From positions 1 through 37,688 of IMG/VR virus record IMGVR_UViG_3300017963_000483: DNA of 37,688 nucleotides; one strand, written 5' to 3'. The notes below the pieces were generated by a model, which saw only the letters and a list, made by a program, of their open reading frames with translations, was not told where the DNA came from and did no database searches. Below, piece after piece: positions 4,825 to 33,467 of this stretch (position 1 is its first letter; each line of letters starts with the position of its first letter). The translations under genes and the position numbers were made by a program. Source of the stretch: a virus.

Positions 4825-5180
4825 GGTCTCGTCTTTGTACGAATGGCATGTCCAGTGTTTAGGAGGGCATCCTGGAGCGTGCGGTGGGGGCCGAGGAAGA
4901 CGTAGCCGGGTAGGCGGTCAAAGGACAGGTTGGCGAGGAGATTGGCGACGTTTCGAGGGGTTGGAATGTGAACGGTGATATCGAGGGTGTTTTCGAGCAA
5001 ATTTACAACGAAGCGGGTAGCGGCGCGGCCGGCGTCGGTGTGGGCTTCCGGGCAGTCGACGCCGATGAGTCGGATGGCTGGCCGGAAGCGGCCGTCGAGC
5101 AGGGAGTAGACTTGGGTATCACCGTCGCGCGCGGAGATGAACCGCGCCGCCAGGGTGAGACCGAGCGGCGGGCGGTTCAT
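4821..5180 (-). CDS. Staphylococcal nuclease (SNase/TNase) homologue
   Basis: A 119-residue SNase-fold protein. It shows ARDGDTQVY (D21), the IRLIGVDCPEA block with R37, D42 and E45, GRAATRFV, and FDRLPGYVFLG with R89. R37, E45 and R89 correspond to the active-site Arg35, Glu43 and Arg87 of staphylococcal nuclease, and the Asp ligands are also present, so a calcium-dependent DNase/RNase activity is likely. No signal peptide is visible, although both neighbours have membrane or secretion features. It could degrade host nucleic acid or act extracellularly after lysis. Confidence 0.85.
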   Translation of the reverse strand: MNRPPLGLTLAARFISARDGDTQVYSLLDGRFRPAIRLIGVDCPEAHTDAGRAATRFVVNLLENTLDITVHIPTPRNVANLLANLSFDRLPGYVFLGPHRTLQDALLNTGHAIRTKTRP

Positions 5181-5183
5181 CGG

Positions 5184-5438
5184 TTATTGGTTCGGTGGGT
5201 TTGCTTGAACGGTAACAACAGGCAGATAACGAAGGCGGAGCGCGTATCCACCGAGGAAAGGGCGGGGCCGTGCGGTCCAGACAGGAACGCGCGGCAGCGG
5301 AGCAAGGATCGGCGGGGCGGGGACGGCATAGAGATAGCAGGATTGGCCCGGACAGCAAATCGGCGCGGCAGTGGTGGCGCTGACGAGCAGGAGGCAAACG
5401 GTTGCGAGGGCGACGGCTGCAAGGGCGAATAATCTCAT
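5184..5438 (-). CDS. Small secreted hypothetical protein
   Basis: An 84-residue protein beginning MRLFALAAVALATVCLLLVSATTAA, a clear signal peptide with a likely cleavage after Ala ~25. The short mature part is rich in Pro and aromatic residues (CCPGQSCYLYAVPAPP). Start ATG 5438 overlaps the previous stop as ATGA. Function unknown. Together with the neighbouring trypsin-like and nuclease genes it belongs to an envelope or export cassette. Confidence 0.55.
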   Translation of the reverse strand: MRLFALAAVALATVCLLLVSATTAAPICCPGQSCYLYAVPAPPILAPLPRVPVWTARPRPFLGGYALRLRYLPVVTVQANPPNQ

Positions 5439-9977: not shown

Positions 9978-11021
9978 TCAGTTGGCTCGTCGGCCCTTGC
10001 CGGCCGGCTGCACGCTCTGCTCGTTTCCGTATCGCTCAGGGTGGAGCGCCCGGAATTCCGCGCGGCGACGAGCCACCTTTGGATCTTCCGGCCGATCCTC
10101 ATGTGCGACCGGCGGACGTCCGTTCCGATCCCGCCAGGCCGCCTGGTCATCGTCGTAGTGCTCCCGGAGCCAGGCGCAGGGTTCCCAGGCGTACTCCCCC
10201 TGACCGCGGCCTGATGCCTTGTAGACCTGCCACCGGCGAGCCATTTCGGCGATCGGGTCGTCGTGGTCCTTGGCCAGTAGACGGACGGCCGTGGCGTAGT
10301 GCTTCTCGGCACGCTGCCTGCCAACCTTCGGCGTGACGTCGTTCCAGAAGTCGGCGAACCCGGCCCTGATCGTCTGCGCAGCCAATTTGGATTTCTGCGC
10401 AGTCTGCGCAGCAGATGCGCATTTATCTTTAGGTATAGGTATAGGTCTTAGGTAAGATAGTTGGGCGCCCTCATGGGCGCACTCATGGGCGCACTCATGG
10501 GCGCTACCATGGGCGCTACCATGGGCGCTACCATGGGCGCTTTGCGCCCATTGGGCCTTATCCTGCGCATTGTCATCCGCCTTCCGATGGGCGCTTTCCG
10601 CCCATTGGGAATCGTTCCCATGGGCGCACTCATGGGCGCTTTGCGCCCATTGGGCGTCGCATCGAAGTTCGTCCGGGTTCTCGTCAAGGGGGGCGTCTTC
10701 GAGCCCCAGAGCGGACTCCGGTACGGTCACCCAGTAGAGCCCGGACTGGTGCCCGCGGCTCTCGTAGTGTAGCCACCCAGCATCGATTGCCCGCTGGCGC
10801 CAGGCAGCCAAGGTTTTGAAGCGCCTGGTCCCCACGAGTGGCATCAACTGCTCGTTGTAAAATCGCACCGCGCCGCGATACCGCTTCGAATCTTCCTGTT
10901 GAGCGATCATCGTCAAAAGGCATACTGCCTCCGGTCCGATGTCATTTGCTAGGCAGGTCTTGGCCATTAAGCGGATGGCCTTGGCGGCAAAATACGGCGG
11001 GCGTGTCGGATAGTCGGCCAT
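9978..11021 (-). CDS. Replication initiation-like protein containing iterons
   Basis: A 347-residue protein from ATG 11021, which has GGAGG at a good distance; the longer ORF adds an unlikely WLWLWLWL run. Residues ~1-120 look like the winged-helix domain of phage replication proteins (RPPYFAAKAIRLMAKTCLANDIGPEAVCLLTMIAQQED...FYNEQLMPLVGTRRFKTLAAWRQRAIDAGWLHY). The middle (~140-210) is a repeat-built linker (AHGSAHGSAHECAHE...). The C-terminal ~110 residues (GFADFWNDVTPKVGRQRAEKHYATAVRLLAKDH) match the helical domain often found at the end of such proteins. The linker DNA holds tandem 12-bp iterons, as in lambda O, so the gene probably contains its own origin. Confidence 0.7.
   Translation of the reverse strand: MADYPTRPPYFAAKAIRLMAKTCLANDIGPEAVCLLTMIAQQEDSKRYRGAVRFYNEQLMPLVGTRRFKTLAAWRQRAIDAGWLHYESRGHQSGLYWVTVPESALGLEDAPLDENPDELRCDAQWAQSAHECAHGNDSQWAESAHRKADDNAQDKAQWAQSAHGSAHGSAHGSAHECAHECAHEGAQLSYLRPIPIPKDKCASAAQTAQKSKLAAQTIRAGFADFWNDVTPKVGRQRAEKHYATAVRLLAKDHDDPIAEMARRWQVYKASGRGQGEYAWEPCAWLREHYDDDQAAWRDRNGRPPVAHEDRPEDPKVARRRAEFRALHPERYGNEQSVQPAGKGRRAN
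10417..10650. repeat. Candidate replication origin: iterons beside AT-rich stretch
   Basis: Six CATGGGCGC cores start at exact 12-bp steps (10472, 10484, 10496, 10508, 10520, 10532), with two more at 10619 and 10631. Three palindromes of the form ATGGGCGC-TTT-GCGCCCAT (one imperfect) are centred near 10542, 10596 and 10641. Next to the iterons, 10417-10462 is AT-rich and carries AGGTAT repeats, a plausible unwinding element. The whole block lies inside the replication-initiation-like gene, the arrangement of the lambda origin. The exact 12-bp spacing could also come from simple expansion of coding repeats. Confidence 0.55.
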
Positions 11022-11797: not shown

Positions 11798-12457
11798 TCA
11801 TTGCGCCGAGGGTTGCGATTCCACAGCCGCGCAGCATTCGCCGTCCTCACTCAGCAACTGGTCGAGATCCGCGAACGAAATGCGGCAGTTGCCGTTGTCG
11901 CCCCAGCCACGGCCCCAACTGTTGCGGATGCTGACCAGCTGGGTGCTGCAATTGGCTCCATAGCACAGCACGGCATGCCCACCGAGCAGCCTTCCATCAG
12001 CGTGTATCACGCCTTTCAGATCAGGCTCTTCCATCCCCTCGTACCAGTTCACCCCGAGCACGAGCGGCCCGCTTACGAGCAGGTATTCGATGGCAGGCGT
12101 CAATCGCCATTCCCATCGATACTCAGAAATATGGCCTGTTATGGTCAGCACTTTCGCGGCTCCACGCACCGAAGTTCCCTCGTAATCCTGCCCTTCCCAC
12201 TCGTCGTGGTACTGGGCCAAAGTATAGATCCCATCGGGCGCAATCGGGCGCTGCCTCACGGGTGACGCCGCGAGCCAATTGGCCCAGGCGTGGCCGACGC
12301 AATTCGGTGCGGCGCCCTGGTCCGTTACCTGGCCGCAGCGCCAATAACGGTACTTGCGCGTCGTGCGGCGGGTGCGCAGCCGATAGTGGCGGTCCCTCGT
12401 ATCGGCCACGTATTCGCGCCCGTAAGTACGTGCGATTTTGTCAGTAGCGCTTGCCAT
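11798..12457 (-). CDS. Papain-like (C1A) cysteine peptidase
   Basis: A 219-residue protein from ATG 12457 with AAGGGA upstream. The catalytic set is complete: Gln47 in VTDQGAAPNCVGHAWAN, Cys53, His161 in LLGGHAVLCYG, and Asn179 in IRNSWGRGWGDNG. No signal peptide or propeptide is visible, so it would act in the cytoplasm or be released at lysis. Such small C1-type peptidases occur in phages and prophages of environmental bacteria. It lies among small Zn-finger and membrane proteins; the substrate is unknown. It overlaps the upstream gene by 17 nt. Confidence 0.9.
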   Translation of the reverse strand: MASATDKIARTYGREYVADTRDRHYRLRTRRTTRKYRYWRCGQVTDQGAAPNCVGHAWANWLAASPVRQRPIAPDGIYTLAQYHDEWEGQDYEGTSVRGAAKVLTITGHISEYRWEWRLTPAIEYLLVSGPLVLGVNWYEGMEEPDLKGVIHADGRLLGGHAVLCYGANCSTQLVSIRNSWGRGWGDNGNCRISFADLDQLLSEDGECCAAVESQPSAQ

Positions 12458-16184: not shown

Positions 16185-17239
16185 CTCGCATCATTCCTGT
16201 CGTTATTCATCCGCTGCACCCTCCTCGACCTCCGCGTCGCGCTCTGGCTGGACGACGACTCGCATCATTCCTGTCGTTATTCATCCGCTGCACCTGCGCT
16301 CCGGTGCAGGCCGCCGCGGATGACCTAACAAACGCCTCGCATCATTCCTGTCGTTATTCATCCGCTGCACCGGGCCGGTCGGTTCGGTTTCGGAATCGGC
16401 AGAAGACTCGCATCATTCCTGTCGTTATTCATCCGCTGCACCCATCACCGCCGGCCGGCCCAATCCAGTGTCCCTGTCACTCGCATCATTCCTGTCGTTA
16501 TTCATCCGCTGCACCGCCGACGAGTTCGTCCAACACGTCGCCCACCTGGCCCTCGCATCATTCCTGTCGTTATTCATCCGCTGCACCGTCACACACAACT
16601 TCTCGTACAATCGCCCGAGAACTCGCATCATTCCTGTCGTTATTCATCCGCTGCACCGGGGCCGGCGCTCTCCGGTCCGCCCGTCGCAATGGATCTCGCA
16701 TCATTCCTGTCGTTATTCATCCGCTGCACCTCAGAGAACGACAACGTCGAAACGACGCTGATGTACTCGCATCATTCCTGTCGTTATTCATCCGGTGCAC
16801 CGGGGAGACCACGGCTGCGACCGGCCTACGGCGTTTGCTCGCATCATTCCTGTCGTTATTCATCCGCTGCACCGGTGAGAACCCCGCAAAAGCCATGGCC
16901 TCGGCCCAATCTTCTCGCATCATTCCTGTCGTTATTCATCCGCTGCACCGTGATTGTGGTCGGCTCTTCATCGCCCAGCTGCGCCGCTCGCATCATTCCT
17001 GTCGTTATTCATCCGCTGCACTCCCTGGGGGGGGTCGCGGGTCCTTTTTCAGGATCGCTCGCATCATTCCTGTCGTTATTCATCCGCTGCACCGTGATTG
17101 TGGTCGGCTCTTCATCGCCCAGCTGCGCCGCTCGCATCATTCCTGTCGTTATTCATCCGCTGCACCAATGCGAAGAGCAACGGGAAACGGCGATGAGGCT
17201 TTGCTCGCATCATTCCTGTCGTTATTCATCCGCTGCACC
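16185..17239 (-). CRISPR. CRISPR array, 15 repeats and 14 spacers
   Basis: Fifteen 36-bp repeats start at 16185, 16259, 16336, 16407, 16480, 16552, 16622, 16695, 16766, 16838, 16914, 16987, 17058, 17131 and 17204. On the plus strand they begin CTCGCATCATTCC and end ATCCGCTGCACC. Only two vary: C to G at 16795, and C to T at the last base, 17022. Spacers in order are 38, 41, 35, 37, 36, 34, 37, 35, 36, 40, 37, 35, 37 and 37 bp. The spacers at 16950 and 17094 are identical. The spacer at 16221-16258 matches this genome at 32950-32987. On the minus strand, the strand of the effector, the repeat ends GACAGGAATGATGCGAG, which resembles the AGGAATGC-type ends of Cas12f repeats as I remember them. 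There is no AT-rich leader on either side; the array may be transcribed from the operon upstream at 19409. Confidence 0.96.
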
Positions 17240-17554
17240 CCCGCGCTCGCTACCCGCAGCCAGCACACGACTTACGCGCCCGTTTGCGAGCGGTGCGTGT
17301 TGGTGGCCGCGTCGTCCACGTCCGAGCAGGTACCGCGCGCCCGCAACCGCAGGGATCAGAAGGTTTTGCGATGTGCGAGCGGCCCCGGGGTTTGTCGCGC
17401 CACCCAGCCGCTCGCGGAGCACATAACGTCGGCACCCGTTGCGCACGCAGACCGGGCGATCGCTCGCCAGATACCTGGCCGCACTGACAGCCACCGGTTC
17501 GCCGCACACGCGGCAGGGCAGCGTCAGCTTGCTTTTTCGTCGTCTTGACCCCAT
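17222..17554 (-). CDS. Four-cysteine Zn protein overlapping the effector (-1 frame)
   Basis: A 110-residue ORF from ATG 17554, with AGGA about 7 bases upstream, overlapping the effector's last 31 nt in the -1 frame. A basic start (GSRRRKSKLTLP) leads to CRVCGEPVAVSAARYLASDRP and VCVRNGC, giving C14, C17, C36 and C41. This is the kind of Zn knuckle that in TnpB/Cas12 proteins sits between RuvC-II and RuvC-III. The following NPGAARTSQNLL recalls the RuvC-III 'D-x-N-A-A-x-N-I-L' with Asn for Asp. The ORF ends in the first repeat of the array, so its last residues come from repeat DNA. It could be a separate small Zn protein, the second half of a split effector, or the product of frameshifting at the A5 run at 17533-17537. 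Confidence 0.5.
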   Translation of the reverse strand: MGSRRRKSKLTLPCRVCGEPVAVSAARYLASDRPVCVRNGCRRYVLRERLGGATNPGAARTSQNLLIPAVAGARYLLGRGRRGHQHAPLANGRVSRVLAAGSERGGAADE

Positions 17555-18834
17555 CCGTATTCCTGTCGATGCTGTGCCACGCCAAGTCGTTTTGTCGTCT
17601 GCCATTCGATGGCATTGGCTGCCATTTTGAATTTCAGACGGCCAGCAAACTGAGTCCACGGAAACGGTATTCCGCGCACTCCAAACCACAGCTTGTCGCG
17701 CAATGGCATGGTCGGTTCGCGGTAGGCCAACGCGCCGCAGTCCTGTTTGATGCACGCTGCGACGATGTCCGTAACGAGGTGTTTTGTGAAGCGGTCTTCC
17801 ATGTCGCAGAAGGCGCGGGAGAACGGCCGCAGCGCCCGATAGAAACCTTGCTTGCCGTGACCGCGTTTGGCACCGTCCTTGTAGCGGTTGCGGATGACAC
17901 GCCGGCGGATCGCCAGGCGTCGATACTCAGCTTCCAGTGGCGCGGCGTCACCAACGTACCAACGGCGTTGAAATGCGCGGCCGCTGGCGTCCCCCTCGGG
18001 AGGGAAGAGCAGTTCAAACGGACCGCGTCGACAATCGGGGCCGGTCGGCGTCAGGACGGCGACACGGTCGATAGTTAGGGCGTGGTCACGCGCCGGCTGC
18101 TTGTAGGTCAACTGGAAAAACCACGCGCCGCGTTTGTGAACCAGTTTCGAGTCAGACATTTTCAGCTCGCCATGAGCGATGCGACGCACGACGGCGCGAT
18201 TGCCTTTGCTGAGCTGCCGCACTTCCAAACGACAGATAGGCGACCGCTCACGCATGCCAGCGTTCTTGCTGAGCAGTGGAAATCGTACGACGCACGAACT
18301 GGCCCCGCAGTGCCGCATCGCCTCTGCGTTGGTCTCCCGATTGAACTCGCCGCAATAACAAATCGCAGCGGAGTTGTTGGGGACAGGGATCGCCTCACCA
18401 CGCCAGGAGGGGGCGGATATTTCATAGGCTAGGATGCCCTGCCAGAAGTAGCGGGCACTGCCTGGATGGTTCCACGGCATCTTCGCTTTCAGTTTCGCCA
18501 GAACCTCGCCGCGGACGTGTGTGATGACATTCGAAGACACACGCGGGGCAAGCCGACGGGCGGCGTAATACATCTCGTTCTCTTCGGCCTGCGACATCGC
18601 GGGGTCTTCCAACACGGGTTTCCCAGCGGCGCTGACTTTCGGCGACCCATCACGTCGACGCCGTTGGGCCGGCTGCCAGTCGGGGTTGTCCTCTCGCCAC
18701 CGGATCCAGTGCCGCAGCGCTCCGTTACGAGCCAGATTGCAGTCCCGAGCAACCTCGGCAAGCAGTGCGTGACAACGCCTGGTCGGCATCGTGAGGCACG
18801 CCCCGAGCTTGATTTCAAGCACCTGCGTCGGCAT
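17524..18834 (-). CDS. TnpB/Cas12-like effector (mini type V, possibly V-F-like)
   Basis: A 436-residue basic protein. The ATG at 18834 joins the upstream stop as TGATG; a GTG at 18837 is also possible. The N-terminus (LEIKLGACLTMPTRRCHALLAEVARDCNLARNGALRHWIRW) resembles the start of TnpB-type proteins. A Cys cluster lies at ~159-181 (CYCGEF...HCGASSC), then a WED-like strand region (LEVRQLSKGNRAVVRRIAHGELKMSDS...GAWFFQLTYKQP). The RuvC-I candidate is Asp256 in LTIDRVAVLTPTG, without the usual glycine. A helical bridge (YRRLAIRRRVIRNRYKDG...FSRAFCDMEDRFTKHLVTDIVAACI) leads to RuvC-II candidate Glu373 in ALAYREP, then W.QFAGRLKFKMAANA. It stops before the Zn/RuvC-III part. The adjacent CRISPR array and anti-repeat make a Cas12-type role more likely than a transposon protein; there is no TnpA. 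Confidence 0.65.
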   Translation of the reverse strand: MPTQVLEIKLGACLTMPTRRCHALLAEVARDCNLARNGALRHWIRWREDNPDWQPAQRRRRDGSPKVSAAGKPVLEDPAMSQAEENEMYYAARRLAPRVSSNVITHVRGEVLAKLKAKMPWNHPGSARYFWQGILAYEISAPSWRGEAIPVPNNSAAICYCGEFNRETNAEAMRHCGASSCVVRFPLLSKNAGMRERSPICRLEVRQLSKGNRAVVRRIAHGELKMSDSKLVHKRGAWFFQLTYKQPARDHALTIDRVAVLTPTGPDCRRGPFELLFPPEGDASGRAFQRRWYVGDAAPLEAEYRRLAIRRRVIRNRYKDGAKRGHGKQGFYRALRPFSRAFCDMEDRFTKHLVTDIVAACIKQDCGALAYREPTMPLRDKLWFGVRGIPFPWTQFAGRLKFKMAANAIEWQTTKRLGVAQHRQEYGWGQDDEKAS

Positions 18835-19409
18835 CACGCGACCCCCACAACAGAGGCGCTGAGAGCGGCCACCTGGGCCGTAAGCCGGTCGTTCTCAGCC
18901 TGCAATGCAGCATTTGCAGCCTCTAACTCGGCAACGCGGCGGCGCAGGCGTTCAACTTCCCTGAGAGCGGCGGCCTTCTCTTGTGTTGCCTTTGTGGCAG
19001 CCACGCGTTGCGTGGAGGCTTCGGTCTGTGCAGCCTCTAGGTCGGCGTGTGTTGCGCGTGGCCTCGCCACTGCTTGGGACTGCCTCGCTTCGACCTGCCG
19101 TTGTTCTTCCCATAACAATTCCATGGCACGCAAATCGTAGTTATGTTCTGACCATTCAGTTTCGCGCGGAAACATGCTGCGGATGGCAAGCAGCGTGTCA
19201 AGCTGCACGTAGCCGGCGAGGGAGGCGAAGAAGTGCCGGGACAGGTAGTCCCTCGCCAGCCACTCATCCCCCTCGAATTCGTCAGCTATCCAGCCGATAT
19301 CCTGCAACACCTCGGCGGCAAGGCTGACGCGGCGGTAAATGTTCTGGTCTGCCAGCTTTGCAAGTTGCCGCAGCTCGATAAGACGCTGTTTAGTTTCCGC
19401 TCGGTCCAT
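18834..19409 (-). CDS. Coiled-coil protein coupled to the CRISPR effector
   Basis: A 191-residue protein from ATG 19409 with GAAGGAG upstream. The first ~100 residues are helical (RAETKQRLIELRQLAKLADQNIYRRVSLAAEVLQDIGWIADEFEGDEWLARDYLSRHFFASLAGYVQLDTLLAIRSMF). The rest is a long coiled coil (LEAAQTEASTQRVAATKATQEKAAALREVERLRRRVAELEAANAALQAENDRLTAQVAALSA). Its stop overlaps the effector start (TGATG), so both are made from one mRNA. I do not recognise it as any Cas protein. It may be an accessory subunit of the CRISPR system, or simply a phage early gene next to it. Confidence 0.7.
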   Translation of the reverse strand: MDRAETKQRLIELRQLAKLADQNIYRRVSLAAEVLQDIGWIADEFEGDEWLARDYLSRHFFASLAGYVQLDTLLAIRSMFPRETEWSEHNYDLRAMELLWEEQRQVEARQSQAVARPRATHADLEAAQTEASTQRVAATKATQEKAAALREVERLRRRVAELEAANAALQAENDRLTAQVAALSASVVGVA

Positions 19410-19670
19410 CCGTCAGTCTCCTTCTGTTGAAAACAGCGGCAGGCGCCCGAAGACGCCCACCGCCAAAACAGGAATGACGCCCAGGCCGTGCGCCTATGCG
19501 CGAATATCCGGGCTTTCGTTTCGCCGGCCTTCTGCGAGAGTTGCCGTGCGCTCGTGTACCGGATACCTGGACGAACGAATTGCTCCGTGCGTAACGCAGG
19601 CGGTTTCCGGTTTTCTTGACCACGGTACTACTCGCCTCTCATGGGGGTGCGAGTCCCCCAGTGTTTTGTG
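19410..19670 (-). ncRNA. Candidate tracrRNA / leader of the CRISPR operon
   Basis: A 261-bp gap with no credible ORF, directly upstream of the coiled-coil gene. On the minus strand at 19480-19468 it reads GCGTCATTCCTGT, which pairs over 13 bases (one G-U) with ACAGGAATGATGC in the crRNA-strand repeat. Upstream at 19659-19643 a hairpin with a G5/C5 stem (6 bp with the flanking pair) shows CTCGCA in its loop, the complement of the repeat's last TGCGAG. Such anti-repeats define tracrRNAs in Cas12f and similar systems. RNA start, end and secondary structure are not known. Confidence 0.5.
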
Positions 19671-19883
19671 CTACTCCTCTTCCCCTTCATCGAACGGCAG
19701 CTTGTTTTGCCAGTCCGGCCCGCCGTGAATCATGTCGAGCAGCTCGTCGTTCAGACGGTCGAAATTCTTCTTGCAGGCAGATGCTTCGTCTTTCGCTTCC
19801 GTCCATTCCAGGAGCGCTTTACGTACCGCCTTCTCCTGCTCCACGATTGAGTGGTAGTGATCGAGTTGTGCGTTGTTTGCCAT
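19671..19883 (-). CDS. Small acidic helical protein
   Basis: A 70-residue protein from ATG 19883 with GGAGAAG upstream. Mostly helix (QLDHYHSIVEQEKAVRKALLEWTEAKDEASACKKNFDRLNDELLDMIHGG) with an acidic end (PFDEGEEE). It is the first gene of the leftward transcription unit that leads into the CRISPR operon. Phage proteins of this plan are common but it is not recognised; an anti-restriction or DNA-mimic role would be speculation. Confidence 0.55.
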   Translation of the reverse strand: MANNAQLDHYHSIVEQEKAVRKALLEWTEAKDEASACKKNFDRLNDELLDMIHGGPDWQNKLPFDEGEEE

Positions 19884-32885: not shown

Positions 32886-33467
32886 TTAGCCGCGGGTGTT
32901 GAGGAGCAAGGCCACCGACGTGATGATGCCGGAGGTCACGGCAGTGGAGTCGTCGTCCAGCCAGAGCGCGACGCGGAGGTCGAGGAGGGAACCGGGCAAT
33001 AGGTCGGTGCTGGTGAGGTCGAAGTCTTTGTCGGCCAGGGTCGTCGAGTTGCACGAGACGGCGTCGCCTGTGTAGAGGTCGCTGCCTTCGGCGTTCTCGC
33101 GGTCGTCGATGTAGACGTTCAAGTCGACGGCGGCGGACTGGTCGCAAACCGCGGTCAATACGCCACAGTGGACGCGGACCGTAACAGGCGAGGCGTCGAC
33201 GTATTCAGGCGGGAGCGTGAAGAATGACCGGCCGTAGTAGACAACAGCGCCGGCCTCCCCCATGTCCTCAGACTGGAGCGTGATGCCCTGGGTACCATAG
33301 GTGCCGTCGAAAATTCCTAGGTCGTCTGTGGCACCGGTGTTGCCCAGGAGGGTGTGCGGGGCATCGTGGACGCGGAAGTCGGCGAGGTTCAGATAGTACG
33401 GCTGGTCGAATAGCTGGTGGTGGTCACCTTTTTGGATGAAGTCGTCGGGGATTAGGTGGCTGGCCAT
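32886..33467 (-). CDS. Structural protein carrying the self-spacer target
   Basis: A 193-residue beta-rich protein (FFTLPPEYVDASPVTVRVHCGVLTAVCDQSAAVDLNVYIDDRENAEGSD...LLPGSLLDLRVALWLDDDSTAVTSGIITSVALLLNTRG). It could be a capsid decoration or head fibre protein; the family is not recognised. Its coding DNA at 32950-32987 is identical to the CRISPR spacer at 16221-16258. It lies between the portal and protease genes. Confidence 0.6.
   Translation of the reverse strand: MASHLIPDDFIQKGDHHQLFDQPYYLNLADFRVHDAPHTLLGNTGATDDLGIFDGTYGTQGITLQSEDMGEAGAVVYYGRSFFTLPPEYVDASPVTVRVHCGVLTAVCDQSAAVDLNVYIDDRENAEGSDLYTGDAVSCNSTTLADKDFDLTSTDLLPGSLLDLRVALWLDDDSTAVTSGIITSVALLLNTRG
32950..32987 (+). other. Protospacer identical to the array's own spacer
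   Basis: All 38 bases equal the reverse complement of the spacer at 16221-16258; the match grows to 43 bases when shared flanks are counted. If the crRNA is made from the effector strand, the 5' flank of this protospacer is GGAG, sharing GAG with the repeat end. If made from the other strand, the 5' flank is TTCC. With the first orientation the guide is also complementary to the late mRNA. Confidence 0.95.

Follow-up and report, generated by a model that had tools for sequence, protein, structure and literature searches.

The locus described here raises the question of whether a 261-bp gene-free stretch at the head of a phage-borne operon with a CRISPR (clustered regularly interspaced short palindromic repeats) array encodes a trans-activating CRISPR RNA (tracrRNA) and, if it does, what the effector served by it is still able to do. 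The locus belongs to the IMG/VR virus record IMGVR_UViG_3300017963_000483, all 37,688 bases of which were analysed and are hereafter called the window. The operon lies on the minus strand and consists of the tracrRNA region, a gene coding for a coiled-coil protein, the gene of a Cas12f-like effector, a small open reading frame (ORF) and the array, in that order (Table 1). The site at 19467-19480 very probably belongs to a tracrRNA of the V-F type, and there is similarly little doubt that the effector is unable to cut; the two statements are likely to hold together, while the function proposed below, that of a DNA-binding silencer, is only slightly favoured.

The 36-nucleotide (nt) repeat, which is nearly identical across all 15 copies, reads GGTGCAGCGGATGAATAACGACAGGAATGATGCGAG on the minus strand. 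The initial annotation had claimed an anti-repeat pairing with it over 13 bases, one of them G-U, at 19468-19480, and this pairing proved to be exact: the minus strand from 19480 to 19468 reads GCGTCATTCCTGT and pairs with ACAGGAATGATGC. Extended by one base pair, it is the longest repeat-complementary run on either strand of the window, the array excluded. When the 261-bp stretch was randomised 2000 times with a first-order Markov model, a single copy contained a run of at least 13 bp with no more than one G-U; the expectation for the whole window is 0.05. Co-folding with the last 22 nt of the repeat, a check which had been proposed together with the claim, gave a duplex energy of -23.7 kcal/mol, as low as none of 1000 dinucleotide shuffles (shuffled mean -13.8) and attained only by segments containing the anti-repeat site, with the region 5132-5438 coming near at -22.9. 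The energies of the candidate tracrRNA with six other V-F repeats were -10.4 to -19.1 kcal/mol, which means that its own repeat is preferred. The published Cas12f anti-repeat rule (PMC10090079) is satisfied by the site, which has 13 Watson-Crick pairs and, in total, 17 pairs out of 22; it is permissive by itself, with 124 passes among 73,072 positions, and on the minus strand of 19410-19670 this site is the sole pass. The absence of genes from this stretch, also claimed initially, holds as well, as no credible gene was found between the ORF ending at 19671 and that starting at 19409.

The hairpin reported to display CTCGCA, complementary to the repeat end TGCGAG, is likewise present, and no other hairpin in the window has a loop complementary to the repeat end; of 5000 shuffled versions of the 261-bp stretch, 48 contain such a hairpin. 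Since both the long and the short pairing claim repeat nt 31-33, coexistence would limit them to about 11 bp and 6 bp. A long pairing accompanied by a loop pseudoknot of 5-7 bp is the crRNA-tracrRNA architecture of Cas12f1 (PMC11246509; crRNA, CRISPR RNA), and the candidate has the same layout. In the loci L023, L057, L060 and L017 a pairing of four bases joins the loop to the repeat end of the same locus, and the letters of loop and repeat end vary in step between loci (TTCA/TGAA, TTCG/CGAA, CCAG/CTGG and, in the window, CTCGCA/TGCGAG). As the loops of other loci partly pair with foreign repeats too, this agreement is counted as support for the architecture across loci and not as a formal co-variation test within the lineage of the window.

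The same place and strand were found with covariance models that included neither window sequence nor any anti-repeat or repeat information. They were built from tracrRNA 5′ domains of independent Cas12f loci, which had been gathered from plasmids, viral contigs and genomes; a certain circularity has to be kept in mind, in that the core motif by which the seeds were collected had first been noticed by comparing the window with Cas12f1 guide RNAs. Model R1, built from four Cas12f loci among which its helices co-vary, recovers the held-out Cas12f tracrRNAs of L063 (1e-12), L017 (3e-8), L015 (8e-7) and L019 (4e-5), as well as that of the Syntrophomonas palmitatica locus L064 (5e-7). Its match in the window, 19527-19662 on the minus strand, scores 11.1 bits with a window-wide E of 0.1 and ranks second, which is weak if taken alone; only the broader model R2, built from 15 tracrRNA 5′ domains, is convincing. 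With R2, the segment 19527-19663 of the minus strand ranks first with 18.4 bits (E of 0.003 for the window and of 2e-5 for the 261-bp stretch), the background maxima in related phage DNA being 10.3 bits in 85.6 kb scanned unfiltered and, with the default filters, 15.1 bits in 349.6 kb. Rfam gave no match in the window. One of the loci, L015 from Alicyclobacillus phage MMB025, contains an apparently intact Cas12f annotated as a transposase, its own repeats and a model-found tracrRNA at 1715-1806.

The array adjoins a single effector with a RuvC fold, as is characteristic of type V systems, and this effector is closest to Cas12f1 by both sequence and fold. PADLOC profiles matched it as Cas12u3 (6.8e-10) and Cas12f (5.5e-8), and the PDB sequence search with phmmer found AsCas12f1 (9.4e-5), the identity to Cas12f proteins being only 15-22 percent. 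The structure model is of moderate confidence (mean predicted local distance difference test score 68, predicted template modelling score 0.56); Foldseek places AsCas12f first with 7.8e-19, the matches next in rank are all Cas12f1, and Cas12m2 has 2.7e-7 as against 7.8e-19 and down for Cas12f1, so the effector is not closest to Cas12m. Considering that Cas12f1 enzymes are tracrRNA-dependent (PMC8548392), the pairing layout, the repeat-free covariance match and the nature of the effector support the initial proposals of a tracrRNA, of a minus-strand array orientation and of a tracrRNA-dependent type V effector, the subtype of which can now be narrowed to V-F-like.

In the alignment the effector has Thr in place of the RuvC-I Asp and Arg in place of the RuvC-II Glu. 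The Cas12f hidden Markov model covers the protein as far as residue 258 and resumes for residues 301 to 370, leaving out both catalytic motifs. No zinc-ribbon/RuvC-III segment was found in any of the three minus-strand frames up to the array, whereas the C-termini of ten intact Cas12f proteins, used as a control, all score in the same search; a frameshifted effector with its C-terminus in another frame was rejected on this result. The catalytic triad (Asp, Glu, Asp) and the C-terminal zinc ribbon of V-F nucleases are thus missing, and the effector is very probably nuclease-dead. Because the catalytic residues are replaced and the C-terminus is absent, it is classified as V-F-like and not as a canonical V-F nuclease, and in this state it should bind and not cut.

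One of the 14 spacers, the farthest from the effector, is identical to a segment of a structural gene of the phage itself (ORF 32886-33467, minus strand), which sits between the portal and major capsid genes. The crRNA of this spacer is complementary to the sense strand of the structural gene. This is the single protospacer known for the array, and its 5′ flank is GGAG. The flanks of the protospacer share 3 nt (GAG) with the repeat end and 2 nt (GG) with the start of the next repeat, slightly above chance. Neither the self-matching spacer nor the loss of the effector residues had been mentioned in the initial annotation.

Table 1 Features of the CRISPR operon and the matching protospacer in the window
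Feature	Position	Strand	Remarks
CRISPR array, 15 repeats x 36 nt, 14 spacers of 34-41 nt	16185..17239	-	Minus strand is the crRNA strand
Small ORF, 110 aa, C-x2-C ... C-x4-C zinc-ribbon-like motif	17222..17554	-	Overlaps effector 3′ end
Cas12f-like effector, 437-codon gene, 436 aa	17524..18834	-	ATG at 18834, TGATG-coupled to upstream gene
Coiled-coil protein, 191 aa, function unassigned, same operon	18834..19409	-	Strong ribosome-binding site AAGGAG
tracrRNA long anti-repeat (candidate), 14 bp (two G-U) with repeat nt 20-33	19467..19480	-	One extra G-U beyond 13 bp
tracrRNA 5′ domain (candidate): pseudoknot hairpin, core stem GCGAG-UAGUA-CCGUG ... CACGG-CAACU-CUCGC, then AGAAGG	19527..19663	-	R2 match
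Hairpin GGGGG-ACTCGCA-CCCCC whose loop complements the 3′ end of the repeat, TGCGAG (short pseudoknot of repeat and anti-repeat)	19643..19659	-	
Protospacer within a structural gene of the phage itself (ORF 32886-33467, minus strand)	32950..32987	+	Identical to spacer 16221-16258, 38/38 nt

From these computed features, namely the array, both pairings, the core motif, the effector family, the residue loss and the self-match, we infer the following course of events, in which transcription, crRNA loading, DNA binding, silencing and the targets are all putative. A Cas12f1-type tracrRNA would be transcribed from the minus strand, about 19663-19462, in the 5′ region of the phage operon and would pair with the repeat twice, over about 11-14 bp with its 3′ half and through the 6-bp CTCGCA/TGCGAG pseudoknot beside the spacer. 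This two-site pairing would load crRNAs onto the effector, which should act as an RNA-guided block bound to DNA, since all three RuvC catalytic positions and the zinc-ribbon end are lost while the Cas12f fold is kept. Transcription or replication of competing phages or plasmids could be silenced in this way, perhaps together with one late gene of the phage itself. Such a block of transcription would, by analogy, resemble the action of the naturally non-cutting Cas12m, as subtype V-M protects by binding without cutting, through silencing (PMC10442227, PMC11013384).

Several observations weigh against this interpretation. The core stem has a 74-nt insertion relative to the model, because of which the E of R1 is only 0.1; the extra nucleotides, located between the strands of the core stem, fold as an extension of the same helix. 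In characterised loci the tracrRNA lies between cas12f1 and the array (PMC8548392), whereas in the window two genes separate it from the array: it precedes the coiled-coil gene and the effector, and the array lies downstream of the latter. The overall folding energy of the candidate region is unremarkable (z -1.5). The nearest relatives that the scans revealed, in two further metagenome assemblies, are identical to the window sequence and hence show no compensatory changes. An alternative alignment places Asp268 opposite the catalytic RuvC-I Asp by means of an insertion, which makes the RuvC-I alignment uncertain, although the predicted strand ends make this placement at the first catalytic position less likely. 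Finally, the GGAG flank of the self-protospacer is not T- or C-rich.

The anti-repeat site might also be an old degenerate inverted CRISPR repeat in a system whose effector uses crRNA alone, given that an anti-repeat by definition resembles an inverted repeat copy and that type V systems without tracrRNA exist. This was rejected as highly improbable: a model without any repeat sequence detects the tracrRNA 5′ domain, the complementarity is confined to the 3′ part of the repeat with which Cas12f1 tracrRNAs pair, a separate second pairing to the repeat end is found in a hairpin loop exactly as in Cas12f1, and the effector falls in the tracrRNA-dependent Cas12f group. It is less far-fetched, if still unlikely, that the tracrRNA and the array are real and the effector is a decaying pseudogene of a once-active Cas12f in a system which is now idle, as the effector lacks its C-terminal domain and all three catalytic positions and an inactive system would tolerate an exact self-matching spacer. 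On the other hand, the frame of the effector is open and translationally coupled, its RuvC strands and helices are still predicted in the model, the 15 repeat copies are almost identical, and the tracrRNA retains both pairings and the core stem; the two further metagenome assemblies contain the same sequence, which, being identical, gives little information on selection.

The system could also serve the prophage itself, with the self-matching crRNA silencing the late structural genes in the lysogen. The identity over 38 nt to a gene between portal and major capsid would suit this purpose, a non-cutting effector renders self-targeting harmless, and phage-borne dead TnpB proteins (TldR) are known as RNA-guided regulators (PMC13418256). 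Nevertheless, self-use appears doubtful, considering that only one spacer of the 14 is involved, that GGAG is not a known Cas12f type of protospacer-adjacent motif, and that a spacer acquired from a co-infecting relative would look identical. The broader proposal, in which a temperate phage has turned a whole tracrRNA-dependent V-F system, with its array, tracrRNA, truncated nuclease-dead Cas12f and coiled-coil partner, into an RNA-guided silencer of rival elements and of one late structural gene of its own, is regarded as rather improbable in this complete form.

The silencer interpretation can be compared with several known systems. The locus resembles those of V-F Cas12f1 (AsCas12f1, SpCas12f1, Un1Cas12f1) in the fold and length of the effector, in the long tracrRNA with a 5′ pseudoknot hairpin and a CGAG...CTCG core stem followed by a long anti-repeat, and in the pairing of the repeat 3′ end with the hairpin loop; it differs in the absence of the RuvC catalytic residues and the zinc-ribbon end, the 74-nt longer core stem, the coiled-coil partner gene and the carriage by a phage. 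In V-M (Cas12m), which protects by DNA binding and silencing (PMC10442227, PMC11013384) and is also borne on mobile elements (PMC11656645), the type V effector is likewise small and its RuvC site non-canonical. However, the solved V-M structures are Cas12m-crRNA complexes, whereas the window effector has a tracrRNA and a fold much nearer to Cas12f1.

The natural dCas12f proteins (9n9c, 9n9m) work with an extracytoplasmic function (ECF) sigma factor, and the window differs from such sigma-factor-linked systems in that no adjacent ECF sigma factor gene was seen. A sigma-factor partner for the effector was rejected, as the adjacent coiled-coil protein P0002 matched coiled coils only in the family searches, in which no sigma factor family was found. 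The likeness to the two proteins, deposited in the PDB as structures with guide RNA, consists in their being members of the Cas12f family labelled nuclease-dead (Foldseek 9.8e-14); neither was recovered by the PDB sequence search with the window effector. TldR is not known to be accompanied by a CRISPR array, and the window effector differs from it in being closest to Cas12f1 and not to TnpB (Foldseek). What they have in common is a nuclease-dead RuvC protein of temperate phages, used in the case of TldR for RNA-guided regulation (PMC13418256).

Cas12f tracrRNAs, non-cutting type V effectors and dead Cas12f structures (9n9c, 9n9m) are already known; new within the databases searched is their combination in a phage where the effector is truncated, the tracrRNA is displaced, a coiled-coil protein is the partner and one spacer matches the phage itself exactly. 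Tracr-dependent Cas12f proteins are known as compact nucleases, and here the RNA half is complete while the cutting half is lost. If the system works, this would be another independent mobile element retaining CRISPR for binding and not for cutting, and its effector, about 436 residues long and by nature non-cutting, could be assayed directly together with a defined tracrRNA.

The window contains terminase, portal, major capsid, tape-measure, RecE, RecT and integrase genes and is therefore a temperate siphophage-like genome. Pfam Cas1, which would be required for autonomous adaptation, was not found across the 37.7-kb record, so acquisition of spacers would need the Cas1-Cas2 of the host. The coiled-coil gene precedes the effector gene, to which it is coupled by TGATG, and the final residues and the stop codon of the 110-aa ORF (17222-17554, minus strand) are encoded by the first CRISPR repeat; this ORF is no more than a candidate member of the CRISPR system. 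In viral contigs scanned for the effector, for RecE and for the coiled-coil protein only two copies were found, the 13.3-kb effector region being identical in both. Genome contigs yielded no relative with alignment A3 and only the Syntrophomonas palmitatica Cas12f locus with alignment A4; 399 genomes from the phylum to which this Syntrophomonas genome belongs, searched with a profile, added two further likely Cas12f loci, near-full-length (E <= 2e-94), the remaining matches being much weaker, mostly partial and taken to be TnpB. Apart from the identical copies, the 78 loci related by the portal protein contained neither a Cas12f-like gene nor convincing protospacers. When the array was compared with phage records nothing matched, and the plasmid records yielded nothing beyond weak matches at chance level.

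Two spacers of the array, 16950-16986 and 17094-17130, are identical to each other, which points to a duplication within the array; in viral contigs the duplicated spacer is present only in identical copies of this locus. An 11-nt copy of the repeat core (CGACAGGAATA) is located at the 3′ end of the effector gene (17558-17568, minus strand), and the tracrRNA anti-repeat may be able to pair with this site in the mRNA, if it is not a chance copy. Elsewhere in the phage genome, tandem 12-nt units TGGGCGCACTCA / TGGGCGCTACCA occur at 10450-10660, and a papain-family cysteine protease (Pfam Peptidase_C1, 7.6e-5) is encoded on the early-gene side at 11798-12457 on the minus strand.
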